From assembly GCA_030068145.1 (NCBI GenBank), contig JAPJBO010000302.1, forward strand, positions 166,501-230,500: 64,000 nt of DNA. The letters are read 5' to 3'. The notes under the pieces are model-generated. The model saw only the letters and a list, made by a program, of their open reading frames with translations, had not been told where the DNA came from and searched no databases. Positions 33,601 through 61,131 of this stretch are shown piece by piece (position 1 is the stretch's first letter; every line of letters starts with the position of its first letter). A program made the position numbers and the translations under genes. The stretch comes from Diplonema papillatum (Eukaryota; Euglenozoa; Diplonemea; Diplonemida; Diplonemidae).

Positions 33601-34293
33601 CGACTTCCTCCCCGCCCCCTGTAGGCCGCTGCTCGTGGGCGGGTGGAGTGGGCAGAACAGGGTGAGCAGAACAGGGGCCTACGCTGGCCCGCTCAAAGGC
33701 AGACTGCCTGCTTCCCAGGGGGTTTCTAGATTCTGGGTGAAGGGGACGATTATCTGCTCTCTTAAATAAGCACCTGCTCGGTGGAAATACTAGAGGAGGC
33801 CGCCAGTTCCGAAACACAAGCAAGAATTCTGAGTCAGCGACCAACACAGTTTGCAACTGCAGTATTTGCAATCAAGAGGTGCACTCAAGAGGTCTAGTCA
33901 GCCGCGCTCTGCAGTCTGCGCCCTTAACAGGCCCAGCCAGTTGGAACAGATACGAGTCGTCCCCCAGCCCACTTCAGAACCCCCTGTTTCCTTTTCCGCG
34001 CACGAGGACAGCGTTCGCATTGGCATGGCGTGGCGAATCGTGGTGAGCAATTGGATGAGGAGGTGGGAGGAGATGGAATTCGGCGCTGACCGGATCGGAG
34101 TTAGGCCAATGCTACAACGACCTTCTGCTATAGAGACTAGACCGTACGACGGTTCAAACTGCTGACTAGCGTTGTGGGTGAATCCTAGGATCGCAAGGGC
34201 GGTTCTCGCTGGACGAGCCAGCGTTTGCTGTAGGAACTCACCTGGGTCTGGTAAGTCCATGTAGTACGCTGCCAAGCACTAACCTTTTAGCAC
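33601..34293. other. Spacer between the duplication and the SAP gene
   Basis: Nothing recognised. This stretch lies 3' of the SAP-domain gene and should include its 3' UTR. Confidence 0.4.
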
Positions 34294-36258
34294 TCAACAA
34301 ATGCGCGCATTGCACACCAGCTCGGCCACGTGCATGTTATACAGCTGGCTCGAGAGGGCCTCGTCCGTCACGATCTTTCTTGCTCCCGCCACCTCGTCTC
34401 GCTGCTGGTTGGGGTCGCGGACAACGATGCTGGGAACTACTGTGTCGCCCAGTTTGGCGGCGGCAACCCGTTCAGCAGCAATTTGAGACAATCTTGCTGC
34501 CCCAAGAACCACGCTGGCGTACGTCACATGTAGCCAGCCGTCGACTACTAACCGGCGTGACAGGACATGCCTCCAGCCGGACACGTGTTCCGCGAAGCTG
34601 CGTTTCAGGTTCGCAGGTTCGCTGAAAACGCCAGCCCCTTTCCAGCACCATCTTTCTCCCAACACGGGGGCACCTACCAATTCCCCACGCTGCCGGCAGA
34701 GCCTGCAAACGAACCGACCAGGGTCAACTTCCACGTAGCCTGAAGCTGCCGCAGCCCATGACGTGTTTTGTGACACGACCGGTTTAACAGGGGCCGTACG
34801 AAGGCGAGCAAAGAACGGGTGCAACTCTTTGTTGGTGGGTGCCGGCAAGGCAGTGGACGCTGCCTGTCTAGGCAAAAACTGCAGCACGAAGAAGTGTCCA
34901 ACCGCGTCGTAGCTTTCTGCAACGAAAGCGATGCACACTTCGTTCGGGGTGATACCGTGAATCCTGGGGACACACGTTTCATGTTGGCCCCGAGAGATGT
35001 AGCGCATCTTGTGATGGGAACAGAAAGCGGCCACCTCGTTTGTCGTCAACCCCAGGAAGATCTCACTGGTTAGGGCATCCGTCACTGCAGAGTGTCTCGC
35101 CTTCGTCATGTGGAGCATGGAAGGGGTGGCAACATCCCTCCAAAACTGCTGCAGCTGTAGTACAGTCGGCAGGTGGGCTGGCCCGCACTGATTGCGCTGC
35201 AGAGCCGAAGCCACGTACAGCGTTACGTACGAGCAACTCATATTGTATTGAGTTGTCGTCGTTGTCGCGAGGTCGATCGTAAACCCTTGCGACTCTAACG
35301 ATTCGAGGAACAGGCGCTTCGGGCTTTCCACCAGGGCCCATCCGTGGTCGATGACGCGGGCCTCAAACCTCGCTTCTTGATCGCCAGAGGGCACATCCCC
35401 CGTCGCCTGGGCCAGCCTCGATTCCAGTTCGGCCCGCGTGCCCGTCGTCGCAAGGTTTTGCGCCCTCAACAGGGCCTGGATATCGGCAACCATTTTCCTT
35501 CGCTTCTTAGGCGGCTCAGCAACCGTATCAGCGGTGCTTGTGTCGTCTGTTTCCGCGTCAACAACTTCTTCGTCGACCTTGGTAGCGCCCTCGTCAATGT
35601 GCTCAGCCCCCTCCATAGCCGCGCACTCGTCCACTGATTCGTCTCCGATATCGTCTGCAACGACAGCCTGCAATCTGGCACGAGCCTCTGCCTCAGCAGC
35701 AGCCAGGTCACTGAACTGCTCCTTCCAAATGCTGGTCAGACACGCTGTTACGGCGGTGGAACTATCCTCGTTCCAGGCGCTACCGAGGCACCGCTTTGCA
35801 AATGCCTGCAAGTCGCCGTACTTGCCAGCGTACAGCTCCTTCCCTGTCTTCGAACGAGAAGGGCTGGGTTCTGGTACCTGCAGTGCTTGCAGGGCGTCGA
35901 GAGCTGCTTGCAGCGTCGGAAAGTCTTGCTTCCAAAGCGTCTTCAACTCCTCCATGGGTGCACCGGGACGTTTGCCCACAAATGACTGCCAGTCGTTCTT
36001 GAACCACGCCTTGGCAGTCCGTTCCTTTTGCGACAGGGGAAGCTCGTTCGTCATGCGCACTACAGCACTCATGACAGCGGCAGTGTCCGCGAACTTCTCG
36101 TGCTTCCAGATGCTGCCCAAGTTGCAATTCGCAGCATTCCAGTCGGTTGGTGACCAAATCAAGCTCGCCGGAGTCGACTTGATGACAGCCAAAGCCTGCT
36201 TATAGAAGTCAGGGTGCCCGACAGGGAACAGTTGCTTGCAAGTGCGCAGACCGGACAT
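34294..36258 (-). CDS. SAP-domain nuclear protein with possible OTU-like and zinc-finger regions
   Basis: 654 residues, single exon, ATG 36258. The N-terminal third has three copies of a short motif (GSIWKHEKF about 48-56, KTLWKQDF about 106-113, TSIWKEQF about 175-182). An acidic stretch (202-247) is followed by a PKKRRK nuclear localisation signal (250-255) and a SAP DNA-binding motif (MVADIQALLRAQNLATTGTR onward, about 256-286). The middle has TTQYNMSCSYVTLYVASAL and, about 110 residues later, CIAFVAESYDAVGHFFVLQF, placed like Cys and His boxes of OTU peptidases (inference). CRLC (518-521) and HVSGWRH (558-564) could ligate zinc in a BED-like way. An accessory protein of a DNA transposon is plausible, as is a host gene. 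Composition is even and there is no frameshift. Confidence 0.7.
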   Translation of the reverse strand: MSGLRTCKQLFPVGHPDFYKQALAVIKSTPASLIWSPTDWNAANCNLGSIWKHEKFADTAAVMSAVVRMTNELPLSQKERTAKAWFKNDWQSFVGKRPGAPMEELKTLWKQDFPTLQAALDALQALQVPEPSPSRSKTGKELYAGKYGDLQAFAKRCLGSAWNEDSSTAVTACLTSIWKEQFSDLAAAEAEARARLQAVVADDIGDESVDECAAMEGAEHIDEGATKVDEEVVDAETDDTSTADTVAEPPKKRRKMVADIQALLRAQNLATTGTRAELESRLAQATGDVPSGDQEARFEARVIDHGWALVESPKRLFLESLESQGFTIDLATTTTTQYNMSCSYVTLYVASALQRNQCGPAHLPTVLQLQQFWRDVATPSMLHMTKARHSAVTDALTSEIFLGLTTNEVAAFCSHHKMRYISRGQHETCVPRIHGITPNEVCIAFVAESYDAVGHFFVLQFLPRQAASTALPAPTNKELHPFFARLRTAPVKPVVSQNTSWAAAASGYVEVDPGRFVCRLCRQRGELVGAPVLGERWCWKGAGVFSEPANLKRSFAEHVSGWRHVLSRRLVVDGWLHVTYASVVLGAARLSQIAAERVAAAKLGDTVVPSIVVRDPNQQRDEVAGARKIVTDEALSSQLYNMHVAELVCNARIC

Positions 36259-36529
36259 TTTGGAGACGAGAAGAATTTAGGTAAGGTGTTGATTTCGACA
36301 AGAAAAATTTGAATAGTCCTGGATTGGTGTTGTGCTGATGTCTTGCGGTCGTTCGGGTCACTCGATGATACTCAGGGCACTCATCAGTGGTGGTACTCGG
36401 GGCCGGCCTCTTTGTGGCAAACGACAAACGACAAACGCAAGTGAGAAACCGTCGCACTGTGTCGGGGCTAGTTCTTCTTCTTGGCCAGAAACAAAAAGCG
36501 AAAAAACTCCCACCGACTGGGCAGGCAGA

Positions 36530-38454: not shown

Positions 38455-39520
38455 AGTTGTTCTGGTGAAGCTAAGTTCGGGCGAAGCAACGTTCGGCGAA
38501 GCTGAGTTCTGGTGAAGCAAAGTTCGGGGCCAATTACTTCAACCTTTTAACCCATGATAGACCACGATTCAAACTTTTGACCGTTTTGCGTTGCACAAGG
38601 CATCGGTGTCGTTAACTAGGTGTACTCCGCTCGCTTCGAAGCAAACGCACAAGCTCGGAAGCCGCGGTTTCCAACAGCCCGAACGGTGTAGTCTGCAGCG
38701 TGTGCAATGAGTTATCGGGGTGCAGCAGCCCTCATTCTAACTCCAGACGACCGTGGTAGCCAGCGGCAGGCAAAGCAATACAGTTCAGGTGATAGGGGTG
38801 GACCGGTTTACGACTTGTGCCCTGAAACAAAGGCGCGTAGCTTTTCCGGTCTTGCCAAGACTTGGAATCGGCGTTGGACTCGGCGCGAGCTTGTATCCGG
38901 AGCAACGAACATGAGCAGATGGAGAGCAGAGCAGAGCAAGGGAACGTTTGCGACAGCGGAGAGCCGGATTGCCGCTTGTTGAGGAAGAGGGTCGGAGCAA
39001 GGTTGGCAGCGTGATTGGCGTCGCCCGAAGAGAGGGGGAGAGGAACTCTCGCAGGGCCGCCCTTTGCGAAAATTGCCGTTGAAGAGCTGCGGAGTTTTCA
39101 AACATTTCGTTGAAAGGTCGTCCAGCCAATAGGCCCACAGAGAGAAGGGGGGGATCGATTACAATTGTACTCTCTTCCGTACCGGTACATTCGATACTAT
39201 TCTGGCAGTGCGTCGGTAGCACGCGTGACTGCGGATGTCACAGCGAGTTGGTTGTTACCAGTTACGTCTGTCGCAACGTCTGCTAGAACCGTGAATTCTG
39301 GACATCATCGCGGTGCCGCCTTTTCAACACCACGCCAATCAATTCGACGTGTAAAATTTGACCTGGTTCATCCAGGAACAGAAGCCAGTGTCTTCCGTGT
39401 GGTCGTGCCGTAACAGATGGCGCAACCCGGACACGCTGGTGACTTTGGAAAATTCTTCGGGAATCTCACCGTCATTCTTCCATGTACAAAGGGATTGAAT
39501 TGCAATCGACTTCCTCCCCG
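38455..39520. repeat. Segmental duplication, copy 2
   Basis: Direct copy of 32600-33600 with a small extra insertion near 38965-39050 (GATTGCCGCTTGTTGAGGAA and following) that is also present in the third copy. The 65-codon frame is kept at 39165-39413. Confidence 0.75.
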
Positions 39521-39719
39521 CCGCTCATACCTTCTTGGGGAATCTGATCTGTGGGTCAAACTCGAGAGTTTTACGACTTCAAAATGGGAAACATAGTGAT
39601 CCTTGGTAGGCTTTCGTAACACATCTCCTCACAGCAGCAAACGTCGATCATTTTTTGATGTGCCTTTGCTCGTCGGAGGCCCGGGAGTGTCCGAATGCCG
39701 GCTCGGGTTCTGGCTTATT

Positions 39720-40137: not shown

Positions 40138-42673
40138 CACGGTGCACTAGTAAAAGTGAAAAAGGTGTTTTGACTAGTCATTTTACTAGTGAAAAAGCAT
40201 GACTAGTGCACTAGTAAAAATGACTAGTGCACTAGTAAAAACACTAGTAAAAATGACTAGTGCACTAGTAAAAATGACTAGTGCACTAGTCAAAATGACT
40301 AGTGTCCTAGTAGAAATCCACCTGTTCCGAACCGAAATCTGGGCTATTTTGTAGATTTCAGAGGGTCCCACGGCACAACTGTACCCTACCGTTGCGCTTA
40401 CAACCGTGTTCGGAATAATGTTGGACGGGGAAAAAGTCGAAGTACTTTTCAAAACCCCCAAAAGTCCAAAAAGGTTCCGGTCCAAATATTTTACAGTAGG
40501 GTTCACGCCCACAAGGAAGTTTAGAATCCAAGAATACGATAAGATATGATACATGTGGTGCCTACAGTCAAGGGCGCGCCCAAGTCCGTTAACAGCGCCC
40601 TACAACTTGGAGGTCGCTACTTTAGCCAGACGCAGAAGGTGGCGAGTCGCTGAGCGTAGTCGGCACGCGGCGTCGCCGGGCCATACGGAGCAGGGCCGGC
40701 GGCATGCCCGCGGAAGGACTCGACCTCGGCGAGCTCGCAGTGAAGCGAGCGTCGCTGAGTGAAGGCGACGTCCTGGCCGCCGAGTGGCGGTCACGCGCGT
40801 TTTTGACGGTGGATGCCGACGACAGCGGGCTGCTGGCGTTCAAGGAGTTGATCAAGTATAGCCGGTCCCGGACGTCGTGTTCCGGCACGTGGTCGGCGAC
40901 GGGGGCAATCTCATGAGTCGCCCCGCCATGCTCACCCGAGCTGCTTGTCTACGCGACCCAGGCTACGCCCATAGTCATGATCATGCAACCACGAGTTTTA
41001 AGGACGAACAGAAACTAAAGGTAACCTGAACCAATTTGGACGCGTTTGCGGCCCGGAATTCGGGAAGCTTTGGAATGTTCGCAAAATCTGCCGGTCCCAT
41101 CATTGGTGTAACGGAAACATGAAACAGTGCAAAAGCTGCTTCGGTCAGACTTCAAAATACCGCCAAAAACTGAAAACCCCAGGGAAAAGTCCAAAACTTT
41201 CAGAACCTCCAAAAGCCCAAAACGTTAACTCTAAAAAGTCCAAAAAGATTCCGGTCCAAAGAAGTTCCGGTCCAATATTTTTCCGAATGCGGTTCCCAAC
41301 GCGATTCCTTACTGTGCGATAGACGAAAGCTGGGGGTCAGTTGTCTGTCACGAGCGTCATTCAACAAAGCCAGTTCTGCAGGAATAAGTTACGATTACTC
41401 GTCGGTTTGTGTTTTGCGGCTGAACATGCAGAACTGTGGTCGCTTTTTTGGTGGGCCACCCCGACTCTTCCCCCACAGGAACCGGGCTGAGTATTGAGTT
41501 CTAGAAAGTGCAAGTGCCATGAAGGCAAGCAGCACCACAGCTGAGGACGGGGAGTTTCTGGGAACTTGTTGCCAACTGGGAGCGTTATACAGCTTGCCTG
41601 CCTCATGCTCTTCCGCACTTACTACTAGTAGCTCTCAATGCCCGATAGACAGTGCGTTGTGAATTCAAGCTAATCCGAGGCGGTGATTTTTATTGTCGTT
41701 GTGAACAACCGAAGATGCGAAAGAAGCTGCTTTCACAAATAGTACACCGGCTACGTTACTGTGCGGTAGACCCGACGTGTAGAAACCAGAACCTGCTGGT
41801 GTCCCACCCGACGAAAGCTTTGAGCAGTTGATCGGTGGGCTCAATGGTCGTTAGCACGTCCCGAAACTACAAAGAAACGTGACTTCCAGGCATTCGAAAT
41901 GCCTGGACAAAGCACCACGACGTGTTGACTGGCACACAACGCGCGCGCCACAGGCTACAAGACTGGTTTTCCGCGGCGGCGTGAAAGAGGAAGCACGCAA
42001 TGGGAGAGTGCCTCCAACACTAGAAAGCGGAGCACATAGCAGTGAGCAACGACACTATTTGTGGAATGTGCGCAACACAAAGCCTTGCATGCAAACAGTT
42101 CACAGGCGGACAAAGCCAGCACCTGTTGCACATTCATGTTGGGAAGCTCGGCAAGAATCGTGGGTTTTAGGGAACCCACTACTGTAAATGCACTGTGTCC
42201 GGTGCGATGCCAAGGCGATAGGAGCGCTATGAACGACAAACCGAATCTACGGACCAGAGTTTGAATGTGGTCGGAAGCCCGCATTATTCCAGTGTCTGAA
42301 ACCTGTCACGACATGTCTCTGACCTCACCGTGCAGGGATAGCACTGTCGTTTGCACTATGTTTGCTAAGCCATACAAGCTCAGGGACTTTCCCAAGAAAC
42401 CAACCAAAACCCTCGCAACTCGGCCTGTCTCGCGAAAACTGGGGTTGCCCAGGTGGTTTGTGGTGTCTGGGCACCGGTGGTCACGGTAGTGCCGTGGAAC
42501 CCCTCGAAAACTCTCAAAACACCCAGGACTTGGGTGGATTTTGTCTAAATCACTAGTCATTTTTACTAGTGCACTAGTCATTTTTACTAGTGCACTAGTC
42601 ATTTTACTAGTCAAAATTTTGACTAGTAAAACCACTAGTCAAAGTCAAAAAAGTCCTTGACTAGTGCACCGTG
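40138..42673. mobile_element. Element E1: ~2.5-kb TIR transposon with ACTAGT subterminal repeats
   Basis: Ends CACGGTGCACTAGT (40138) and ACTAGTGCACCGTG (to 42673). Subterminal arrays of AAAATGACTAGTGCACTAGT units (about 40141-40315 and 42550-42665) are in inverted orientation. Weaker inverted similarity continues inward (AAATCCACC..., TCCCACGGCAC) for about 300 bp per side. No transposase recognised; an EF-hand fragment lies inside. No clear target duplication. Confidence 0.65.
40704..40916 (+). pseudogene. EF-hand calcium-binding fragment inside E1
   Basis: A 70-residue frame with one canonical EF-hand loop, FLTVDADDSGLLAFKELIKY, where positions 1, 3, 5, 6 and 12 of the loop (D, D, S, G, E) are right. 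The helix before it is also natural (DLGELAVKRASLSEGDVLAAEW). Immediately after the EF-hand the frame degrades; a natural-looking continuation (VPDVVFRHVVGDGGNLMS) sits in the next frame, so a frameshift or lost intron is likely. Probably a host gene piece captured by the element. Confidence 0.5.
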
Positions 42674-47027: not shown

Positions 47028-48609
47028 CGACCCAGCTACGACCTCGGCAACGTCCCGCGCGGCCGTCAGCGTTGTCGACGCCTTCAGCCCGTAGGCATTC
47101 GTCGCGGTGTAGTCGACACCCGCCCGTACCCCTCCGAAGTTTGTGCGCCTCTTCTCGAGCTCCTAGGCGCCAGCCGTGAATCGCCTTTCTCAGGGTGTGC
47201 CCTCGCTCCCCCTTGCTTCGTCGCACCAGCCTCAGCACATTCCCTGCCTCGTCCTCGGCGTCGTCGAAATCTTCCGTCCATCGTATACCGAGCTTTTTTG
47301 CATGCTCGGCCGCAATACCGACCGGTCCCCACGCGCGGATTCTGCTGCCATACGCCCGTCGAACCGTTGCGACGCGGGCCCTCCACGCCGGCCTCTTTCG
47401 GCATACTTCTGCAATCATGCCGAGCGACCGATACGGCAGCACTGTGTACGGGTCGAGCAAGTGGGCCTTGTTGAGAATGCCCAACACGGCCTTCTGCGCC
47501 CTATGCAGCCTCACCGGGTCCCAGACGCGCTGCGGTGAACTTCCCCAGCCCCCGCACCGTCGGGAGCGCGAACTCGGAGCCGTACGTCGCCGCCGGTAGA
47601 ACCGCCATCGCCGCTAGCCCCGACCTCTGCGCCCTCGAGATCGGTAAGGCACCCAACCGTTCGGCCTCCTCTGCACGCTGGTCGTAGCGCAGGTCCGTTG
47701 TCCTGCGTGTTCGCTTCGTGCCGACCAGACATCCTACGATGGTGAGCTCCTCCTTCGTCACGATGTCGGCGCCACCTATCTTCAACTTCGCTTCGTACCT
47801 CTTCGGCGTCCCAAAAGCGAACGTCTTCGGTACCCCGATAGACATGCCGGTGTTATAACAAAAACGGTCGACCTCCACCAAGGCGTCCTGCAAGCATGCT
47901 TCTCTGAGACGCGTCAGGAGGGTGAGGTCGTCCGCGAAGGATTCGCTCGTCACCCCCCCCACGTCGTCCACTCTGCGCACTACGATTGATAACAGCGCGT
48001 TGATGAGGATCACGCTCAGGGGGCAGCCCTGCAGTATCCCGTTGGTGGTGTAAAAGATGTCTCCCAGCCCCATGTGCAACGTGTACCGCCTTCGTAGTCG
48101 TGCGTAAACATCGCGCAGCGGTCCGAGAATCCTCTCGTGGAGGCCAAAATCCCCCACCAGCTTCAGCACGACGTCTCGTGGCACTTTGTCGAAGCACTTG
48201 GCAAAGTCTAGGGCCACGCCGTACAGCTCCTTCCCGTCAAGAGAGCCTCTTCAATCTGCGAGGCGATTTCAAACACCACGTCCACGGTTCCGTGTTTGGG
48301 CCTGAACCCGTGCTGGCTATCTGCTATCCAGCCTTCTTGCCACTGGACGACGTCCCTGAGCCTCGTGCTCGCCCACAAGCGATAGACCGCGCTTGTGACG
48401 GTGATGGGCCGCAATGCCAGCGGGTCGAGGGTTTCGTCTTTTGGGATCAGCGTGACCGCGGCTTCCAACAACGCGTTCGGCCACGTTCCGGTCGCTTCTA
48501 TCGCGTTGAACACCTTCGCCAGGGCGCTCAGCAACGGCAGTGGCAGCTTCTTTAACTCTGCTGTGCTTCGCCCGAACTTTGCTTTGCTTCGCCGGAACTT
48601 TGCTTTCAC
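45327..48609 (-). pseudogene. 5'-truncated, frameshifted non-LTR retrotransposon (reverse transcriptase onward)
   Basis: Reading 48609 downward, RT finger motifs come first (TLIPKDETLDPLALRPITVT, SQHGFRPKHGT). The palm follows in a shifted frame from about 48217 (VALDFAKCFDKVP, GILQGCPLSVILINALLS, SFADDLTLL, where FADD replaces the usual YADD). A second shift near 47510 leads to VRLHRAQKAVLGILNKAHLLDPY and a third near 47160 to the zinc-finger ORF. The first shift looks like one lost base. No endonuclease domain is present: upstream DNA is a CCCGAACTTTGC array from about 48570. Class not assigned. Confidence 0.8.
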
Positions 48610-48735
48610 CAGAACTTAGCCTCCCCAGAACTTAGCTTCACCAGAACTTTGCTTTGCTTCGCCGAAATTAGCTTCACCAGAACTTAGCTTCGCCCGAACT
48701 TTGCTTTGCTTCGCCCGAACTGTGCTTTCACCACC
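48560..48735. repeat. AACTTTGC / AACTTAGC array, block 1
   Basis: Irregular tandem repeat of CGCCCGAACTTTGCTTTGCTT and CACCAGAACTTAGCTT words. Short reverse-oriented pieces are in both segmental duplications (near 32608-32670 and 38458-38525). It forms the 5' boundary of the decayed retrotransposon. Confidence 0.75.
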
Positions 48736-49438
48736 CCGAGGCCTCGTGCCGGTGGTGCTCATGCCGGTGGCGGTCTTGCTGCCTCTCCAAGACGAAGGAC
48801 CGTTGCCGCAATGCCGCTGTTCTCTCGCGTCAGGAGCTGGACGCCCTCGACGCCCGGCTGCTTTCCCTCTGACAAAGCATCGCGAAAACGGGAAAGCGAA
48901 GATTCCGGTTCCTTTCCGTGGCTGAGTGGGTCAGCAGCCTACAACAGTTGCAACCGACAAGTTGCACCACGACTAAAATCTGGCAAAGTGCGGTCCTCAT
49001 TTGCATGCAAATGACTCCCCACTAGCAACAAGAACAAGATGAATGCGTGGCACAGCCGTGTCTTAAAGGTGAGAGAGGCATGGCTCGCGTCAAAGGACAA
49101 TACCACAACGCAACAAGACGACGGACACAGGGCCGGGTGACAGGCGGAACTGCGCGAAAGCAGTTTGATCAGAGCCGTCCGCAAGACAGCCTTCGGGCTC
49201 TTGACCGGGAAGACGCTCATCACCGACCGCCGAAACTGGCTCGGACGCCATCACTGGCCGCGTCTGGCGAGACAACTGACTGAGTTACCGGACCACTGAC
49301 TCCGCCGTCTCAGGTCAGTCTGGCAGTGAGTGCCAGCCTGGCAGCCCCTCTATTATTAGGCTCTCATGAGGGAGCCAGCTGACAAAAACCACAAAAACGC
49401 TAAAAAGTTTGCGCATTGCTGAACATTGTCTTGTACGC
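48736..49438. other. Spacer without recognised gene
   Basis: Short unconvincing frames only. Confidence 0.4.
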
Positions 49439-49439
49439 A

Positions 49440-49549
49440 TAGAATGGGACATAAGTTTGGCTTATGGTCTATAATGGGTCAAAAGTTTGAATTTTGGTCT
49501 ATAATGGGTCAAAAGTTTGAAGTATGGTCTATAATGGTAATTGGCCCCT
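49440..49549. repeat. TATAATGGGTCAAAAGTTTG array with GGCCCC terminus, block 1
   Basis: About four ~30-bp units of GGTCTATAATGGGTCAAAAG type. The block closes with TATAATGGTAATTGGCCCC. Interpreted as the subterminal array and right terminus of a DNA transposon. Confidence 0.6.
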
Positions 49550-49837
49550 TTGTAGTCCGTTTGTCGCGTTAAAGTGCGATTCCGTGTCTCCACGACACGT
49601 CCTTTTGCTCTGGGTCTGCACTACTGTATCCCAAACTTGATCGCAGTTGCAGCCCGGGAATTTGCAGACGAAAACGAGGCACCCTTTTTAACTTCCGGCA
49701 ATATCCGTGGATTGAGCCGCGATGATGACTGTCAATGAGCGTCGAAATTTCTAATTTGAGCTTTAACGAGCACTCCAGTGTTTTTTGAGGAATCCGTGAC
49801 CCGGCGTGGGTGATCCAATGTCAAGTGTCAATGCAGG

Positions 49838-50088
49838 CTATAATGGGTCGAAAGTTCGAAGTATGGTCTATAATGGGGCAAAAGTTTGGAGCATGGGCTA
49901 TAATGGGTCAAAAGTTTGAAACGTGGGTCAAAAGTTTAGAACGTGGTCTATAATGGGTCAAAAGTTTGGCGGTTTGGTCTATAATGGGTCAAAAGTTTGG
50001 CGGTTTGGTCTATAATGGGTCAAAAGTTTGGAATGGTCTATAATGGGTCAAAAGTTTGAAGTATGATCTATAATGGTCATCGGCCCCC
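49838..50088. repeat. TATAATGGGTCAAAAGTTTG array with GGCCCC terminus, block 2
   Basis: About eight units of the same ~30-bp family, closing with TATAATGGTCATCGGCCCCC. The flank after it (GGAGTCCCGTTT) resembles that of block 1 (TGTAGTCCGTTT), so the two ends share ancestry. Confidence 0.65.
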
Positions 50089-50369
50089 TGGAGTCCCGTT
50101 TTTGTGGGGTTCAGTGGTTTCTGGTACGAGTCTGGCAAGACTGGGCCATGTGCAGGCTACTGCAACCAACTTTGTCACAAGTTTGTGATGCTAATTGCGG
50201 GTTCTGTCGTTTGTTCGGCTGTTGCACGGATTGCGCTGAGTTCTTCTGTGAATCCCTGGTGTATTGAGTGCAAATAAACGGGCTACCCGTGCCACGCGGA
50301 GTTCAGATCCGCAGGCACGAGACTTCTTCGACTGCACCCGGCTTGGCCCGTACTGTACGCAAGAAGCCG

Positions 50370-50900
50370 GTTCGAAGGACGCACTGGAGGCCGCTGCGGC
50401 ATTCTCCGTGGTGGCGTGCACCCGAGACAACGGAGGCGTCGCTTCGCCAGTGGCCCAGTCAGACTTGCCGAGGCGCGCGAGGCGGCAGCCGCTGCCGCGG
50501 GCTGGGCGGTGCTTCCCCGGAAGCCGCGGAGCCCGCCGTCTTGGAGGCCGGCGCCGCTGGAGCAACCCCCGGACTTGGCCCTTCGTACACCGGTTCGAAG
50601 GACATCAGAGGACGCTGCGGCATTCTCCGCGGTGGCGTGCACCCGAGACAACGGAGGCATCGCTTCGCCAGTCAGTTGCCGAGGCGCGCGAGGCGGCAGC
50701 CCGCGGTCCTGGAGGCCGGCGCTGCTGGAGCAATCCCTGGGCTTGGCCCTTCATACACCGGTTCGAAGGGCACACCAGAGGACGCTGCGGCCTTCTCCGC
50801 GGCGGCGTGCACCCGAGACAACGGTCGCTTCGCCAGTCGGACTTGCCGCAGGAGACGACCCCCTCGCGCGCGAAGGAAGAAGTCCGTTCGGACAGGACAG
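50370..50900. repeat. GC-rich tandem repeat of about 160-220 bp, three copies
   Basis: Each copy has GACGCTGCGGC(A/C)TTCTCCG, GTGCACCCGAGACAACGG, CCGAGGCGCGCGAGGCGGCA and CTTGGCCCTTC(A/G)TACACCGG. All frames on both strands are largely open because of composition. No domain is recognised, so I do not call a gene here or in the following frames to 51250. Confidence 0.65.
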
Positions 50901-51719
50901 ACACCATGGGCTGCGAGAACGCACTCGCCGGCCGGGCTGGGGGCTGGTTCCCCGCCGGGCGCCGCGTAGCAACGGGCCGGCTCGGGCGGCTCGGCGGAGA
51001 CCGCGTTGAGGAACTGCGCGATGTTCTTGACGACGGCGTGCAGCCTTGGGGACTGCGAGCAGACAAGTGCAGATAGAGCACGGCGGATACCGCACCGGCA
51101 CGTTGCTCGTGGTCGACAGACGAGGTGAACTGCGAACAAGGCTGCATCATGTGAATGGAGAGCGTCGGAATGCGTGCTCGTCGAGTGCGGAACACGCGAA
51201 GCGACGTGCGACTACGAAGGGTGCCAGCGGGATGTCGAGGATGCAGATGCAACTGATCATCTACGTAGGCAGAGTCACTGAGAGTGTGACTTTAGCTGCA
51301 GCTCCACTGCTATTTTCTTCTCACCGGCAGAATCTCAGGCAGTGCTCACCGCCACGTTTCTTCAGAAGATATATCCTTTCGCAGACGCCGACACTTTCCT
51401 TCCTCCTTCTCGTTGACGGTACTGGCAAGACAGCCTACGGTAGCCATCGGTTGTACCGAAGACTACAGCTATGTGAAACACGGTCGCAGCGAAACCCCCA
51501 GGTTTTGAGTGAGAGAAGAGCTCAGTGGAAGAGATTTAGGTTGCAAAAACTAGGTTTTTTTTTGACTGCCGAAAGTACCCAAAAAATGAGTTTTCAGAAG
51601 GGTTTGCTGGTTTTCAACCAACCAGGAAAATTGACACAAAGAAACACAACTTTGTGTCAAAAATTTGTGTCAATTTCTGACACACTGTGTTTTGTTGTGT
51701 CGCACAAGCCTGCGTAGCA

Positions 51720-52290
51720 TCGCCCATTTGCCTCACCAGAACTTTGCTTCACCTGAACTTTGCTTTCACCAGAACTTAGCTTCATGCTTTGCTTTTTGCT
51801 TCACCAGAACTTAGCATCGCCCGAACTTTGCTTCGCCAGAACTTAGCATCACCCGAACTTTGCTTTGCTTCGCCCGAACTTTGCCTTCACCAGAACCGGA
51901 ACTTAGCTCACCACAACTTAGCCTTGCTTCGCCCGAACTTTGCTTTTCACCCGAACTATGCTTTGCTCGCCCGAACTTTGCTTTCACCAGAACTTAGCCT
52001 CATGCTTTGCTTTGCCCGAACTTTGCTTCACCAGAACTTAGCATCGCCTGAACTTTGCTTTGCTTCGATCAGAACTTAGCATCGCCCTAACTATGCTTTG
52101 CTTCGAACGAACTTTGCTTTCAAGAATTAGCCTCACCAGAACTTTGCTCGCCCGAACTATGCTTTCACCAGAACTTAGCCTCACCAGAACTTAGCATCGC
52201 CCGAACTTTGCTTAGCTTCACCAGAACTTCGCTTCGCCAGAACTTTAGCTTCGCCCGAACTTAGCATCGCCGAACTTTACTGTTTCCCGA
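51720..52290. repeat. AACTTTGC / AACTTAGC array, block 2
   Basis: Same word family as 48560-48735, longer and more irregular. It is followed by CTAGTCTCGCTGGGCGCCGG, a sequence repeated after block 3 near 52875. Confidence 0.75.
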
Positions 52291-52439
52291 ACTTTAACTG
52301 CTGCCTCTAGTCTCGCTGGGCGCCGGTCTTTACCGGCGCAAATGTACTTATTGGTCCAATTTGTTGTTCGCTTCTTGTTCGTCTTCAGGTCTAATGTGCT
52401 CGCAACTTGTGTTTTTGCCCAAGCTCGAAACATACGAAC

Positions 52440-52815
52440 TTGGCATCGCCCAACTTTGATTCACCGGATCGTAGCATCGTCTGAACATGGCATCGCCCTA
52501 ATTTAGCATCGCCTGAACTAGCAATGCCCGAACTGAACATCACGATGAGAACTTAGCAACGCCCGAATTTAACATCGCCCGAACTTTGCTTCGCACCGTC
52601 ACTCAGCAACACCGAAGTTCGCATCGCCTGAACCTTGCTTCGCCAGAACTTAGCATCGCCTGAATTTAGCAATGCCCGAACATCACGATACGAACTTGGC
52701 AACGCCTGAATCCAACATCGTCCGAACTTTGCTTCACGCCAGAACTTAGCAACGCCGAAGTCAGCATCGCCTGAACTTTGCTTCACCCGAACCTAGCATC
52801 GCCTGAAGTTGGCCG
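52440..52815. repeat. AACTTTGC / AACTTAGC array, block 3
   Basis: More degenerate block with GCATCGCCTGAACTT words. Blocks 2 and 3 with their shared downstream 55 bp form a larger duplication. Confidence 0.65.
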
Positions 52816-53442
52816 AACCAAGCTTTAGTCGGGGTGTGGGTGCGTACCCCAGCTTTACGGTCACCGCTGCCGCTAGTCTCGCTGGGCGCAGGTCTTTACA
52901 GCGCGCACGTACGTTTTGCAAAGTGCTCCCTATGCAGCAGGTGGGGCATTCAGACATGCTTCTTACGGAGCGCTCTGAAACGCAGCAGGTGGGTTTTTTT
53001 TTCGAGAGAAAGAAAGGTCACCCACGCTCTCCGGGCGTGGGGCGGCTAGGTGTTGCACGACACGGGCACCGTGCCCTCGACGGAGCGTCCTCAAATGCTT
53101 CTTGCGAGGTGTTCTCATTGCCGCTGGCTGGCCATCCAGACGTGCTTCTTGCGGGTGTTCTCAAACGCAGCACGCAGGGCATCCGATTCGCTTTTTGCGG
53201 AGTGTTCTCAACGCAGCAGGTGTGCTTGTGTTGGCGTTGACGGACCCAACGGAACAACAGTGCCCGCATGCAGCGCCGGATTCAGTTTTAACGAGAGAAC
53301 GAAGCCGTTGTTACTGCAAAGATGCACGACGGTTCTCATCGCAAGTTCCACCGCCAACTGAGAAGACTCTTTGAGAGGCATGTCAAGTATTTGAGCTGAA
53401 ATAGGGGCCTGCAAAGAGTTGAGCGGACTCGTCAAAAATACA
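52816..53442. other. Degenerate repeats around 52940-53220
   Basis: Loose repeats of CATGCTTCTT(A/G)CGG and (A)AACGCAGCAGGTG. No gene recognised. Confidence 0.4.
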
Positions 53443-53596
53443 GTAGGGCGGGTCTGTCGGAAACACCCTGTCTCGTGAGTTCTGCCTTCTTTCTGTTTGC
53501 TTCTGCCCCACTCCGGCCGTAGGGCGGGTCTGTCGGAAACACCCTGTCTCGTGAGTTCTGCCTTCTTTCTGTTTGCTTCTGCCCCATTCCGGCCGA
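53443..53596. repeat. Two tandem copies of a 78-bp unit
   Basis: TAGGGCGGGTCTGTCGGAAA to CCGGCCG, near-identical at 53443-53520 and 53521-53596, so a recent tandem duplication. Confidence 0.8.
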
Positions 53597-53710
53597 ACTT
53601 TGCATAAATTTGCTTCAGCAAATTTAAGCTAACTTAAGCAAAAATTAAGAGAATCTGAAGAAAATCTGAAGCCAACCGACTTTGCTTCTTTGGGGAGTCA
53701 CCAACTTTGC

Positions 53711-54328
53711 TTAAATTTGCTTTGCTTGCCAACTATGGAATTGGTGGCTAATCTGGCTGTCCAACTGTATTACAGGAATCGAAGTCGAATATACCTTAAG
53801 GATGGCTCCGAAGAGGGCCAAGTTTGTTCGCGAAAACTCGTTTAGCACGTGAGCTTGTTGTCTTCCGCCGAGGACAATGAGATTCCAGATCAGCTTGTCG
53901 TAGTATCCGAGAGCAGCTGCAATATCGTGATGCGAGAGGTCGGCTCGCAAGCGGTCATTGCGAACTCGATAAAGTTCGGCTTGCCGCACGACCGCAGAGA
54001 ATACGCCCAGCTGTTGAACCCCTGTCGGGTCCTCTTGAACGCTGTGCCTGTAATGATAAGCCCGCAAGTCAACGATAGCGGCGTCGGTGGCTTTATCGGA
54101 TGCATCGAGTGCGATAGCTACTCCCTTCCGTCCGTAGAGCATTGCAAGCTGTATTGGTGACTCTTGTTGGAACGAGATGCTGCCTTTGCAAATTTGGAGC
54201 TCGGGCTGGCGTTTGTGCAACCCCATTTTGCCGCAGAAGTTGAAACTCAAGTCGCCACGATTGTGCAGCCCCTGGACTGAAACTCCTGACAGTGTGGGGT
54301 ATAGCCACCAGCCACCGGTGGCTGCCAT
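53711..54328 (-). CDS. Hypothetical protein
   Basis: 205 codons with natural composition (ALDASDKATDAAIVDLRAYH, DIAAALGYYDKLIWNLIVLG). No domain, signal peptide or membrane segment recognised. It lies between repeat arrays and could be an exon or a transposon gene fragment. An ATG-rich N-terminus makes the start uncertain; no splice sites were modelled. Confidence 0.35.
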   Translation of the reverse strand: MAATGGWWLYPTLSGVSVQGLHNRGDLSFNFCGKMGLHKRQPELQICKGSISFQQESPIQLAMLYGRKGVAIALDASDKATDAAIVDLRAYHYRHSVQEDPTGVQQLGVFSAVVRQAELYRVRNDRLRADLSHHDIAAALGYYDKLIWNLIVLGGRQQAHVLNEFSRTNLALFGAILKVYSTSIPVIQLDSQISHQFHSWQAKQI

Positions 54329-54509
54329 TCTATGGCTCAGGATGGCTCAGAATGGCTGGAAACAAAATTCAACTAGCATACCCAAAAAAAGCTCACAAAG
54401 TGAGGAAAAAAAAAGTGTTGAAACTGGATTTTAAGCCTCGATTGAGGACTTTTGGGCAATATTTTTTCAGTTTGCACCCCCCCCCTTCCCCAGAAGCCCT
54501 TTCGGAAGG

Positions 54510-54670
54510 GCTGATGCCCATAACGGTAGACAAATCTAAGTTTTTGCCCATAACGGTATAGTCGCTAAGTTTTTTGCCCATAACGGTATGAAGTTCTAAG
54601 TTTTTGCCCATAACGGTATGGCCGCTAAGTTTTTGCCCATAACGGTATGGAAATCCAAGTTTTTGCCAAG
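54510..54670. repeat. GCCCATAACGGTATGG array with GGGCTGATGCCC terminus
   Basis: About five units of AGTTTTTGCCCATAACGGTA, period about 28-33 bp. The left border is GGGCTGATGCCCATAACGG, comparable to the GGGGCTAATTCCCATT terminus of element X. Likely the left end of a related transposon. Confidence 0.55.
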
Positions 54671-54711
54671 TTTTGGGTCCAAATTTTGGGTCCAAGTATT
54701 GGGTCCAAGTA

Positions 54712-54920
54712 TCACGCGTGACATCACGGTCCGTCACACGTGACGTCACGCCCGTCACGCGTGACGTCACGGTCCGTCACACGTGACGTCACGCCCGCCA
54801 CACGTGACGTCACACCCGTCACGCGTGACGTCACGGTCCGTCACGCGTGACGTCACACCCGTCACGCGTGACGTTACGGTCCGTCACATGTGACGTCACA
54901 GTCCGTCACAGGTGACATCA
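54712..54920. repeat. Ten-unit 21-22-bp array of TGACGTCA palindromes
   Basis: TGACGTCA or a one-base variant recurs at 54719, 54741, 54762, 54784, 54805, 54826, 54848, 54869, 54891 and 54913. Seven are exact. Between them are CGGTCCGTCAC or CGCCCGTCAC linkers. TTGGGTCCAAGT repeats flank the array on both sides (54670-54715 and 54920-55020). Confidence 0.85.
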
Positions 54921-56945
54921 TCCAAGTATTGGGTCCAAGTTTTAGGTCCAAGTTTTGGGTTCAAGTTTTGGGTACAAGTATTTCGGATTTTGGTTCAAGG
55001 TTTGGGTCCAAATTTTTGGACCAACTTTTCCGCACGAAAAGCTCCTTCTTACTTTTCATGCTCGCCTTTAGCTGTTCAATGTGGCAATTTCTGTTGTGTT
55101 TTCCGCCAGTTCAATTCCGCCAACAGGAACTTCCTTCCACCCGCTGATCAATTCCCGATCTCTCTAGATTTTCGGGATGAAACCGGAGGGACAATTCCCA
55201 TTGTAGTACACTTCCTTATGTTTGTGCCCATTCTCGAACACTATTTAACTTTTTGCCCATTCTCGAACACTCGCTAACTTTTTGCCCATTCTCGAACACT
55301 TTTTAACTTATTGCCCATTCTCGGTAACTTTGTGCCCATTCTCGAACACTATTTAACTTTTCGCCCATTCTCGAACATTCCAGTTTTTGTGGTGAAAATG
55401 TCACTTCCCCGAGACATTTGCCTCAAGTTTCACCGCGAGAACAGCTGCGTTCACTGATTCGAAGACGGTACCCTTGCTAACTTCAGGCCGCAGCCTCTTC
55501 GGCATCTAAACTCGGGTTCTTGGTTGCTTCAAGCTTCTACACGTGACGGTGGTGTGCGAGCTACCCCGTTTAAAAACCCGGCACAGACTTCACTGAGTTT
55601 GCTCGTCTTGCTTGCAAATTGCGCGGCGGCCATTGAGTGACCTTAGTTCACTGACCTACACCAGGAGAAGCAGCTTGCAAACTTTGCAGCAAAGTGATTC
55701 AAAAAATTTGACCGAAATTTTTTGGCTCAAAAATTTTCGGTCAATTTTTGGGTCAAATTTTTTGGGTCAAAAATTTAGGACAAAAATTTTGGGTCAAAAA
55801 TTTTGGGTCAAAAATTTAGGACAAATTTTTTGGGTCAAATTTTTTGGTCAAAAATTCGGGGTCCAATTTTTTTGGTCAATTTTTTTTCAGAGTTGAAGTG
55901 GCGGTTACACTTGGCACATGGCTGCATGATGGCAGGAGAAATGGCTCCTGCCATGCGCCCTGGCGGCTCGCCGGCAATTCCAGTCTCTCTCTCAGCCTGC
56001 CAGCCTGCGGCAGGGAGGACAAGATCCAGTCACCATCCGCCAGCTCCTGATTATTTTCAGACGACTGGCACTTTTTCTTTGCAGCTTCTACTGTAAGAGT
56101 AGCATCACTCAAATCTTGATTGGCTGCGGCGTTACTTACCGCTCTGAGTCTCTCCCGCTCCTCCTCTGGAGTCATTCGTGACGTCGCGCCCGTCGCTGGT
56201 TACTACTCGTGGTAAAACGTAAAACAGTGGCTCTGATTCTGAAGAGGTTTCGGCACAGAATTAGGAAGCGCTACAAGTAGAACGGGCTGGTCACTCGCGC
56301 ATACCTGAATTATGCACGAATCTGTGTTTAGAAAACCGTTTACCCGTAGTCTGCGGTGTAGAATGGGAATTAGCCCTCGAGAAAGGGCAAAAAGTTAAAA
56401 AGTGTTCGAGAATGGGCAAAAAGTTAGCGAGTGTTCGAGAATGGGCAAAAAGTTACTGGGGGGGGCTAATTACTATTGAACCGTATAATACAATTGAACC
56501 GTATAATACAATTGAACTTTTTTTTCGGGGAATCGGCGCATCCCAACCGTCTAATACAATTGAATTGTAATGTTACTGTACGGCTGACACTTTCGCACTG
56601 CCGTTGAGTGTGAGCCAGTCAGTGAGGCGGTTTCAGGGCCGTTTTCGTTTCGGCTTTTTTTTGGAAAAGTCATGTTGGACCTCCAAAGCGGAGAAGAAAT
56701 CTCAAAACGAGGTTTGGTGTGCATTCCGAGCCCGGGTCTTTCAAAGGTTTTGAGCACGATCATGCTGATGTCGCTGGTGCCGTTGCTCGTGCCAACGTCT
56801 TGGAGCTGGCTGTGTGCGGGGATCATGAAGCACAAACATGGCAATGGGCCGGCAATCGCAGTGTGGCGGTGGCTCCGGAGCTGCTGAGCCAGCTCCGGAG
56901 TTGAGCTTCGGAGCCAGCCGGAGACACGCCAATCGTCGGCATGGG

Positions 56946-59122
56946 CAGTGTGAGACTTAGCTATAGCTAGCTGATAGCTAGCTATAGCTAGCTAGCTATA
57001 GCTGAAAATAAATAGCTAAAATAGCTAAAATAGCTAAAATAGCTGACTGAGCATTTTCAACGGAAATGTCACTATTCCGACTGTTTTCTCGGATTTTGTG
57101 CCGTTTTCCACAGTTTACCGGGATTTTTCAGGCAGATGATCAGCATGAGGTTCACACCGTGCCCCCCCCCCCTTCATCGGGCTTCCCCCCTGTAGACTAC
57201 TGCACAGTAGGACTGGACCTGGGTCTGGCTTGCTGCACTCTGGCAGTCTCTGCTAACAATGCTGGTAGACTTGTATCGTAGTGCCTGGGGGGAAACCCGA
57301 CGCACCACAAACAATCCTTTTCATTTCCGGGTCCATTTCTCGCATCGGAGCTGATCGCGAGCAGGAATTCGAAAAACGTCTGCCACGTGGAGTCACGGTG
57401 GACCAGCCAAGAAATGTCACCAGCCAGGGATCGATTCCTGTCCTTCCCACTGCAAACCTGTGGTTTCCAAGCCCGGTGCCTGCATCTTGTAAGGACCCCC
57501 GAACCACGCACATACTGGATGGTCCCTGGTCTCTTTTTCACGGATCTCTTCATCAGAGCTCATCGCGAGCAAAAAGTCGTCGAAAAAGGTCTGCTGCGTG
57601 AACCAGTAACATAATGCCACCACCAGGGGATCGATACCCGTCCTGCTCAATGCACACCGGGTGGTTTCCAAGCCCGGTGCTCTGCATCTTGTAAGAACCC
57701 ACGGACCACGCACATACTGGATGGTCCCTGGTCTATTTTTCACGGATCTCTTCATCGAAGCTGATCGCGAGCAAAAAGTCGTCGAAAAAGGTCTGCTGCG
57801 TGAACCAGCAACATAATGCCACCACCAGGGGATCGATACCCGTCCTGCTCAATGCACACCGGGTGGTTTCCAAGCCCGGTGCTCTGCATCCTGTAAGAAC
57901 CCACGGACCACGCACGTAGTGTTTGATTCCCGGGTCTATTTTTCACGGATCTCTTCATCGAAGCTGATCGCGAGCAAAACTTTGTCGACAAAGGTCTGCT
58001 ACGCGGACCAGCAACAGAATGCCACCAGCCAGGGGATCGATACCGTCCGTGTTCAATGCACACCTGGTCAGGCTGGTGGTTTCTACGCCCGGTGCCCTGC
58101 AAATTGTAAAAACTACTGACCACGCACATAGTTTTCTGTCTCCGGGTCTATTTTTCACGGATCTCTTCATCGGAGCTGTTCGCAAGCAAAAATTCGTCGG
58201 AAAAGGTCTGCTATGTGGACCAGCGGGAAAATGTCGCCAACCAGGGGATCGAATCCCGTTCTTCCCAGTGCACACCGGTGGTTTCCACGCCCGGTGCCCT
58301 GCATCTTGCACGGACCCACGAACAATGCACATACTTTTTCGTTTCCGGGTCTATTTTTCACAGTTCTTTTCATCGGAGCTGATTGCGAGCAAAAATTCGT
58401 CGAAAAAGGTCAGCTACATGGACCAGCGGGAAAAAGTTACCAACCAGGGGGTCGATACCCGTCTTGCTCGATGCCCACCTGGTGGTTTCCACACCCGGTG
58501 CCCTGCATCATGCACGGACCCACGAACCACGCGCATACTTTTTCGTTTTCGGGTCTATTTTTCACGGATCTCTTCATTGCAGCTGATCGCGAGCTAAAAT
58601 TCGTCGAAAAAGGCCTGCCGCGTGGTCCGGCGGGAAAATGCCACCACCCAGGGGATCGATTCCCGTCCTTCTCAATCCACACGTGGCGGCTTCCACGCCC
58701 GGCGCCCTGCAACTTGTAAAGGGCCCCGAACCACGCACATAGTTTTTCGTCTCCGGGTCTATTCTTCACGGATCTCTTCATCGGAGCTGAAAACGAGCAA
58801 AAACTCGTCGAAAAAGGTTTGCTACATGGACCAGCGGGAAAATGTCACCAGCCAGGAAATCGATACCCTGCACACGCCGTGACACGGCCCGGAGAGGGCG
58901 GGGGGGGGTACCAGGGGGGGGTTGGGCGACTCTGAAAACGAGAACGAGGCAGAAAATCTGGTTTCGTCGCAATTTTTTTGCATTTTTGGGCACCTACCTG
59001 AGGTTTCTGACGAAAAAGACGTGAACATATTTTCAGTCGTCTGGGCAGCTATTTTAGCTATTTTTTAGCTATAAATAGCTAAAATAGCTAGCTGGCCAAA
59101 TAGCTAGCTAAGTCTCACACTG
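56946..59122. mobile_element. hAT-like nonautonomous element nested in Y
   Basis: Ends CAGTGTGAGACTTAGCTA (56946) and TAGCTAAGTCTCACACTG (to 59122). GCATGGG lies on both sides (56939-56945 and 59123-59129), a 7-bp duplication that could be 8 bp. CAGTG ends and a 7-8-bp duplication fit hAT. Subterminal AGCTAAAATAGCT-type repeats occur on both sides. It holds the ~200-bp tandem array described separately. Confidence 0.75.
57320..58880. repeat. Tandem array of about eight ~205-bp units inside the hAT-like element
   Basis: Each unit has GGGTCTATTTTTCACGGATC, TTCGTCGAAAAAGG, GGACCAGC, CCAGGGGATCGATACCCG and GCCCGGTGCCCTGCATC. Spacing is about 197-215 bp (units near 57331, 57535, 57733, 57937, 58149, 58355, 58554 and 58760). 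GGGGATCGAATCCCG resembles a tRNA B box, but no full tRNA fold is present. Confidence 0.8.
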
Positions 59123-59700
59123 GCATGGGGGCGATGGCCCATCGGATGGGACATCTTGTTATCCCCAGATTTATCGGTTTATCCGTCTGCCGCCAGCGCT
59201 CTCTGTCAAAAAGAGAAAGCAGTAAGTTCGTCGGACTGCGGTCGCCATGCTGTTGGAAACTCTGATACTGAGCAACCGCCCCAGAAAAAGTGAACCTTAG
59301 GCCCAAGTTAGGGCACTCTCCTGCCGAGAGTCTTAGCAGGAGTCTTGCCAGGTGTTGGTGGAAACACCCACGGCATGCACCAGTTGGGTATTTCCGACCC
59401 GATGCACGAGAAATCAGGGCTCGGAGTCCTAACTGCGAGCTCGAACCTTTCGCTTGTTGTGTGAAGGTTTTCCCTTCAGTTTTTGCTCGGAGTTGCGTTG
59501 TACTCACTGTGTCATTTGGTCCCGACAACAACGTGTTTCTAACAGGCAAGCTGCACTTCAATTGTAATACACTAGTGTTTTTGGGGGGGGTCTGAGACCC
59601 CCCAATTCCACGCCGTGTATCGTTATATTACAATTGAACTCAATTGTAATTGGCCCCCCCCAGTAAATTGTGTTCGAGAATGGGAATTAGCCCTTGCCCC

Positions 59701-61131
59701 GGGGCTAATTCCCATTCTCGAACACAATTTAACTTTTTGCCCATTCTCGAACACTCGCTAACTTTTTGCCCATTCTCGAACACTTTTTAACTTTTTGCCC
59801 ATTCTCGAACAGTCGCCTAACTTTTTGCCCATTCTCGAACATTGAAAATTGCCCAGGGTGGGATTCGAACTCACCACCCATACATCCAAAAAATCCCAGC
59901 CATTTTTGGGTTCGCCATTTCCGATTCCGATTTCCGTCGGATCCGTTCCTCGAACAAGGTGCCAGCATTGTGGTTGGCTGCTGCGTCCCGGCTCGGTATC
60001 CTGGTTGCGCACTGGGTCATTGACACCGCAGACTACGGGTAAACGGTTTTCTAAACACAGATTCGTGCATAATTCAGGTATGCACGAGTGACCAGCCCGT
60101 TCTACTTGTAGCGCTTCCTAATTCTGTGCCGAAACCTCTTCAGAATCAGAGCCACTGTTTTACCACGAGTAGTAACCAGCGACGGGCGCGACGTCACGAA
60201 TGACTCCAGAGGAGGAGCGGGAGTGACTCAGAGCGGTAAGTAACGCCGCAGCCAATCACTTACAGTAGAAGCTGCAAAGAAAAAGTGCCAGTCGTCTGAA
60301 AATAATCAGGAGCTGGCGGATGGTGACTGGATCTTGTCCTCCCTGCCGCAGGCTGGCAGGCTGAGAGAGAGACTGGAATTGCCGGCGAGCCGCCAGGGCG
60401 CATGGCAGGAGCCATTCTCCTGCTATCATGCAGCCATGTGCCAAGTGTAACCGCCACTTCAACTCTGAAAAAAAATTGACCAAAAAAATTGGACCCCGAA
60501 TTTTTGACCAAAAATTTCGACCCAATTTTTGACCGAAAATTTTTGTCTTAAATTTTCGACCCAAAAATTTTGACCCAAAAATTGACCGAAAATTTTTGAC
60601 CCAAAAAATTTCGGTCAAATTTTTTGAATCACAAGTTTGCAAGCTGCTTCTCCTGGTGTAGGTCAGTGAACTAAGGTCACTCAATGGCCGCCGCGCAATT
60701 TGCAAGCAAGACGAGCAAACTCAGTGAAGTCTGTGCCGGGTTTTTAAACGGGGTAGCTCGCACACCACCGTCACGTGTAGAAGAGCTTGAAGCAACCAAG
60801 AACCGAGTGTAGATGCCGAAGAGGCTGCGGCCTGAAGTTAGCAAGGGTACCGTCTTCGAATCAGTGAACGCAGGTGTTCTCGCGGTGAAACTTGAGGCAA
60901 ATGTCTCGGGGAAGTGACATTTTCACCACAAAAACTGGAATGTTCGAGAATGGGCAAAAAGTTAAATAGTGTTCGAGAATGGGCACAAAGTTACCGAGAA
61001 TGGGCAAAAAGTTAAAAAGTGTTCGAGAATGGGCAAAAAGTTAGCGAGTGTTCGAGAATGGGCAAAAAGTTAAATAGTGTTCGAGAATGGGCACAAACAT
61101 AAGGAAGTGTACTACAATGGGAATTGTCCCC
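59701..61131 (+). mobile_element. Element X: 1.43-kb TIR element with ~32-bp subterminal repeats
   Basis: Ends GGGGCTAATTCCCATT (59701) and AATGGGAATTGTCCCC (to 61131). TTGCCCC is at 59694-59700 and 61132-61138, a possible 7-bp target duplication. GTTCGAGAATGGGCAAAAAG arrays occupy both ends in inverted orientation (59710-59845 and 60940-61100). The interior includes a 300-bp part missing from X'. Nothing coding is convincing. Confidence 0.7.

Follow-up and report, generated by a model that had tools for sequence, protein, structure and literature searches.

Tandem-repeat arrays of Diplonema papillatum as the ends of foldback-type transposons, probably mobilised by Mutator-like transposases

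What are the arrays of roughly 30-bp tandem repeats that cluster in a 64,000-nucleotide stretch of the Diplonema papillatum genome (contig JAPJBO010000302.1, C302:166501-230500, hereafter the window), and what mobilises the DNA that carries them? An earlier note on this DNA had read four array types, one of them in an element called Y, as the ends of a diverse DNA-transposon superfamily with matching termini, three of them sharing a core. Having searched the genome (271 Mb in 2910 contigs), we find that the arrays are the inverted ends of small non-autonomous DNA elements and lie at element boundaries. We class three families, A, X and C, as foldback-type transposons of the non-autonomous, cut-and-paste sort, and consider it likely that they are mobilised in trans by the transposases of Mutator-like elements (MULEs). 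Single letters denote families, L with a number denotes loci read elsewhere in the genome, and C with a number denotes contigs.

Arrays, shared core and element boundaries

A tandem-repeat search of the window recovered arrays with the period that the earlier note had described: those of 29-30 bp lie at 49443-49537, 49838-50076, 54515-54667, 55221-55377, 56377-56455, 59711-59841 and 60941-61097, and the array of Y has a period of 18 bp (56471-56517). Ten repeat units, taken as consensuses read off the sequence, were then compared in 45 pairs against 300 composition shuffles per pair. The similarity of the pairs A-X, A-D, A-G, X-C, X-D, C-D and D-G was reached by none of the shuffles and that of X-G and C-G by a single one, with A-C not significant by itself (p 0.08). 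The F unit is more weakly similar (p 0.01 with C and G, 0.03 with X, 0.13 with A), the E unit resembles those of X and D only (p 0.017), and the Y unit is unlike those of A, X, C, D, E, F, G and H (p 0.39 or more) and closer to that of L052 (p 0.027). Judged by these comparisons, A, X and C share one core, AATGGGNCAAAA, being linked via X and D, and D and G share it too, whereas Y stands outside; the core that the earlier note had read in three of its four array types thus stands. Genome counts were checked against reversed-sequence controls: TATAATGGGTCAAAAGTTTG has 330 exact matches (control 0), and the core GAATGGGCAAAAAGTT, with at most two mismatches, has 5982 (control 93), which, counted at 29 bp each, make up about 0.06% of the genome.

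The terminus was found to change together with the array, as had been suggested, for in each family read it consists of a truncated copy of that family's repeat joined to a short CCC end. Written as cut-off repeat followed by new end, the termini are TATAATGG-TAATTGGCCC in A, GAGAATGGG-AATTAGCCC in X, GTTATGGG-CATCAGCCC in C, CTGGAATGGG-AATTGGCCC in D, GAGAATGG-TGTTTACCCC in E and CATAATGGGG-AATGTCCC in F. The A terminus GGGCCAATNACCATTATAGACC, with one mismatch, has 52 matches in the genome (control 0), which give 11 inward pairs 0.98-3.1 kb apart; the C terminus GGGCTGATGCCCATAACGGTA, with three mismatches, has 83 (control 0), giving 16 inward pairs 0.6-6.3 kb apart. These pairs were matched by eye from the coordinates, and partnerless ends remain in the list.

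Target duplications were checked for X, A, C and one F copy; D, E and G are known from their arrays and ends alone. For X, 40 of 1702 candidate places, picked by likeness to the X of the window, were scored, and the letters around 24 of the scored loci outside the window were read. Sixteen of these have both ends (L012, L015, L017, L037, L039, L041, L047 and L051, without two clean ends, were left out) and, together with two window copies, make up a set of 18, among which 12 have a perfect 9-bp duplication, three a perfect 10-bp one, one matches at 8/9 and two have none. Five A copies gave perfect duplications of 9 bp (C40 and C216) and 10 bp (C227), an 8/9 match (C150) and a partial one (C177); five C copies gave perfect 9-bp duplications in L054, L056 and L058, 9 bp beside a repeated terminus in L057 and none in L055; and the F copy has a 9-bp duplication. 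Hence the arrays do end at element boundaries elsewhere in the genome, as the earlier note had supposed. The inverted ends of these elements, built of tandem direct repeats in variable number, are those of foldback elements as a structural class, and the duplications of A, X and C fall within the 8-11 bp of MULEs.

Coding elements and the source of the transposase

A MULE-domain probe (itself scoring 8.5e-21 against PF10551) pointed to 22 places in the genome at E-values of 0.14 to 3.4, which are not significant in themselves; ten belong to one family of open reading frames (ORFs), 11 to another and one to neither, and one member of each family was read. The first, L053, is a 4854-bp element with GGG…CCC ends and, in the one copy read, a 9-bp duplication ATATTTATA on both sides, in keeping with the 8-11 bp, mostly 9 bp, of MULEs. 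Each side carries an outer 29-bp array, inverted relative to that of the other side, as well as inner 12-13-bp arrays. The element encodes a 1091-aa ORF with the MULE DDE domain (PF10551 at 3e-17 and PF00872 at 5e-9, above the curated cut-offs); among 7994 candidates scored of 5.8 billion proteins, its residues 300-880 match two plant proteins with PF10551 and no others. The second, L052, has a 999-aa ORF related to that of L053 (31% over 794 aa; PF10551 at 7e-12) lying between inverted 31-bp arrays, the repeat unit of which is unlike those of A, X and C in the shuffle comparison. X, C and L053 all have inner arrays rich in GGTC[AC], with a density in six stretches of 3.4-6.1 per 100 bp, versus 0.35 in window 1-31000. 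The full-length coding member that the earlier note had envisaged was thus found in part: L053 has the same plan and a MULE transposase, but the loci read include no coding member bounded by A, X or C ends, and for this reason the mobilisation of these families by MULEs is something that we infer.

The mechanism that we propose runs as follows. Arrays of 29-30 bp direct repeats form the inverted ends, the outermost repeat being cut off to give the terminus, and insertion leaves a 9-10 bp target duplication, as in the copies listed above. MULE transposases from coding families with the same plan, which L053 has fully and L052 in part, would act in trans. The array repeats may be multiple transposase-binding sites, as is cited for the repeats of Galileo, which hold additional sites of this kind (PMC4079207), and array and terminus would then change together because of this role. 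Unequal exchange may alter the repeat number. X copies often lie inside arrays of their own or related families, and nested clusters such as that of the window are built up in this way.

Several observations weigh against this explanation. Two X copies (L014 and the window X, among the 18 with both ends), two A and two C copies are without a clean duplication, so that, with L057 set aside and the X copy with 8/9 included, 6 of 28 both-ended copies (three X, two A, one C) have no clean perfect one. L052 shows neither a GGG terminus nor a clear duplication in the sequence read, and the similarity of the L053 unit to that of X is below significance (p 0.17), that to the units of A (0.06) and C (0.04) being only marginal. 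Together with the want of coding members bearing A, X or C ends, this marginal likeness also favours an alternative in which the same foldback-type elements are moved by another transposase that likewise makes 9-bp duplications, the likeness of L053 being convergent; Rehavkus, too, is listed with 9-bp duplications in the part of PMC6446971 available. We regard this alternative as unlikely, though to be taken seriously, since both array-ended coding elements found encode MULE transposases and the inner 12-13-bp arrays are common to X, C and L053.

The plan of these elements is that of foldback-type Mutator elements such as Muta1 and the Tm1 Mutator/Foldback family of root-knot nematodes (PMC3169594); the repeats of Tm1 are of 13-15 bp, versus 29-30 bp plus inner 12-13-bp arrays here, and the Diplonema elements differ from it further in that a truncated unit of each family's array serves as the terminus. 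Muta1 and other MULEs of Aedes aegypti, termed type 2 Foldback element, are alike in their long inverted ends with subterminal tandem repeats, 8-9 bp duplications and many non-autonomous derivatives with variable repeat number (PMC5225508), but their repeats are of 9-15 bp and the available part of that account reports no core shared across families. The Drosophila Foldback-like elements Tetris and Galileo also have long inverted ends with internal tandem repeats (PMC4079207); they differ in that Galileo belongs to the P superfamily and the repeats of Tetris are of about 220 bp. Among the MULE lineages surveyed in PMC6446971, 9-bp duplications and SWIM domains are common and some have minisatellites. 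No publication on the present families was among the literature matches listed, which is no proof that none exists. These elements are foldback-type, non-autonomous and probably MULE-mobilised, with insertion into arrays as the trait that most deserves attention.

One cnidarian MULE lineage is listed with an Ovarian Tumour (OTU) gene in the available part of PMC6446971. The C-terminal domain of the L053 and L052 proteins (L053:3780-4274 and L052:3902-4396) looks OTU-protease-like by eye (DGNC); the otubain Pfam match is sub-threshold for L053 (E 0.1), with none for L052.

A reading in which Y, too, belongs to one superfamily with A, X and C is very improbable. Y does have an array adjoining its end and carries GGGGCCAATTAC near that end, like A. 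However, the uninterrupted site AAAAAGTTAAATTGTG in X' and other X copies (23 matches, some in overlapping loci) became AAAAAGTTA-CTGGGG…CCCCAG-TAAATTGTG on insertion of Y into X, with only TA duplicated, which sets Y apart from the array-MULE kind; these ends and a unit resembling none of those of A to H remove it from the plan in which the earlier note had made it the fourth member. The TA duplication is that of Tc1/mariner elements, and a Tc1/mariner-like Y may be taken as a lead only. That the arrays are unrelated satellites merely resembling transposon ends is scarcely credible and runs counter to what the earlier note had held, for although some arrays are long and one-sided (as on C75, where some 50 A repeats share a strand and no left end was found), inverted pairs with termini and target duplications occur at many places.

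Insertion into arrays

Do the foldback-type elements also land in one another's arrays? For the X ends, the adjoining 100 bp were compared with nine repeat units, for which the best of 300 random 100-mers from window 1-31000 reached a score of 23; at 11 of the 24 loci the flank of one or more X ends scored at least 44. With L014 and the window X set aside from the 18, there are 16 X copies that have a duplication, and seven of them lie inside arrays: one in D (L019), three in E (L042, L044 and L046), one between E and G (L043) and two in X (L048 and L049). As site and flank are identical in L044 and L046, these count as one event, giving 6 of 15 events. The chance of at least 6 of 16 would be 5e-13 were arrays to make up 0.2% of the genome and 4e-7 at 2%, both fractions being assumed, with the share of E, G and other arrays outside the core count.

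These figures might suggest, and we propose tentatively, that the arrays are a shared landing platform, with array-bound transposition complexes targeting the arrays of their own and related families so that elements preferentially nest. Several points speak against such a role of the transposase: none of the five A copies was read as being flanked by arrays, the 40 scored X places had been chosen by likeness to the window X, and other elements land in arrays too (F in A, Z in C, Y in X), so the arrays may simply be open or tolerated DNA. If the proposal is true, families that share a core would be targets for one another and so make up a network, and nesting, if self-directed, would be an unusual means of curbing the damage that a transposon does to its host. 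One MULE study reports that few coding MULEs of maize and rice have inserted into other transposons and that MULEs favour low-copy or genic sequence (PMC3903597), with which frequent array insertion would contrast. Several families with one core, matched termini and countable sites in one genome offer a natural series for asking whether foldback arrays are multiple transposase-binding sites and also guide the choice of target.

The window locus and its neighbours

Table 1. Elements and element ends in the window (positions counted from its first nucleotide)
Feature	Positions	Strand	Remarks
A-like left end GGGCCAATTAC	32675-32760	+	two recognisable repeat units; no partner end established
Another copy of that left end	38527-38581	+	one recognisable repeat unit
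A arm: core part, array 49440-49537, terminus ATGGTAATTGGCCC	48877-49548	+	match to A elements, e.g. L024 705-1409
Other A arm: core part, array 49838-50076, terminus ATGGTCATCGGCCC	49574-50087	+	match to L024 2062-3027
C left part: terminus GGGCTGATGCCC, outer 30-bp array 54515-54667	54508-55187	+	
X first part: left end GGGACAATTCCC, 29-bp array 55221-55377, inner 13-bp array 55715-55886	55188-56455	+	
Y element, CTGGGG...CCCCAG, within right array of X	56456-59663		TA duplication
X end GGGAATTAGCCC	59664-59693	+	X taken as one element shows no target duplication
X', complete X element, inverse orientation	59702-61130	-	9-bp duplication CTTGCCCCG

The pieces that the earlier note had placed near 32683 and 38527 are indeed A-like left ends; lying inside a local duplication (32600-33616 versus 38455-39522, 91-95% identity), they represent one event, with no partner right end established. 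The window A element (48877-50087) is rearranged, as both of its arms have the same orientation and are inverted in intact A copies. The window C, whose right end lies outside the window, has inner 13-bp arrays at 54654-54710 and 54921-55029, and its first 160 bp are identical at 151 of 158 positions to the right C end in L056. The window X was inserted in the C core at 55188; this core continues in L054, which has another X at a different point within it. X' starts 8 bp past X and has its own target duplication. Within Y lies a tandem satellite of about 204 bp (57398-58868).

Several candidates for coding members of A and C were rejected. A 660-aa ORF (window 34294-36276), considered as the A transposase, represents a shortened copy of a multi-copy, SAP-domain ORF (1194 aa in L050:643-4227), other copies of which match from window 34312 to about 36726 (the longest to 37086), short of the A ends. 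The SAP-domain ORF has distant relatives at many places (25-29% identity, ORFs up to 1597 aa), and its 1194-aa form has a C-terminal ERMFS stretch that we take to be reminiscent of hAT transposases. L029, where an F element of 8.7 kb lies in an A array, has ORF pieces in this element that by eye look like retroelement reverse transcriptase, and no assignment was made. L054, with C ends 5.27 kb apart, holds the nested X, inside which a 238-aa ORF (L054:3431-4147, minus strand) is a fragment of a multi-copy ORF that reaches 1544 aa or more; this parent (1544 aa at several places) occurs in many full and partial copies and is perhaps a long interspersed nuclear element. In L057, with C ends 6.28 kb apart, the ORFs have no Pfam match passing the cut-off and lie past an internal C array (1371-1460), suggesting a nested block.

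The last candidate, L056 (C678), has C ends, a 9-bp duplication and a single 1577-aa ORF without a passing match in Pfam, NCBIfam, the PDB or the protein-search candidates; a single-sequence structure prediction of part of it was uninformative (mean predicted local distance difference test score 32). As an autonomous C element it was discarded: six near-complete copies (C912, C188, C48, C938, C241 and C522) match from 214-226 to 5526 and have none of the C arrays. The ORF block, of which five full-length copies are at 100% (rounded), is therefore a separate element, Z, nested in a C array. Counter to this, C1768, C676 and C17 join C arrays to the 5' end of Z at 82-86% identity; we read these three junctions, with some doubt, as older insertions at the same core; two junctions of this kind are visible in L058.

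Beyond these elements, the window carries a tRNA-Leu gene and ORFs with G8, BTB and reverse-transcriptase domains, including a reverse transcriptase fragment at 47501-48250 on the minus strand (PF00078, 5.7e-16). Arrays of 16-bp units like GTTCGGGCGAAGCAAA occur at 32604-32674, 38459-38528, 48554-48728 and 51727-52807, and in L055 and L058 too. Two CACTAGTAAAAATGACTAGTG arrays in opposite orientation, about 2.3 kb apart (40199-40317 and 42551-42611), are perhaps the ends of another element.

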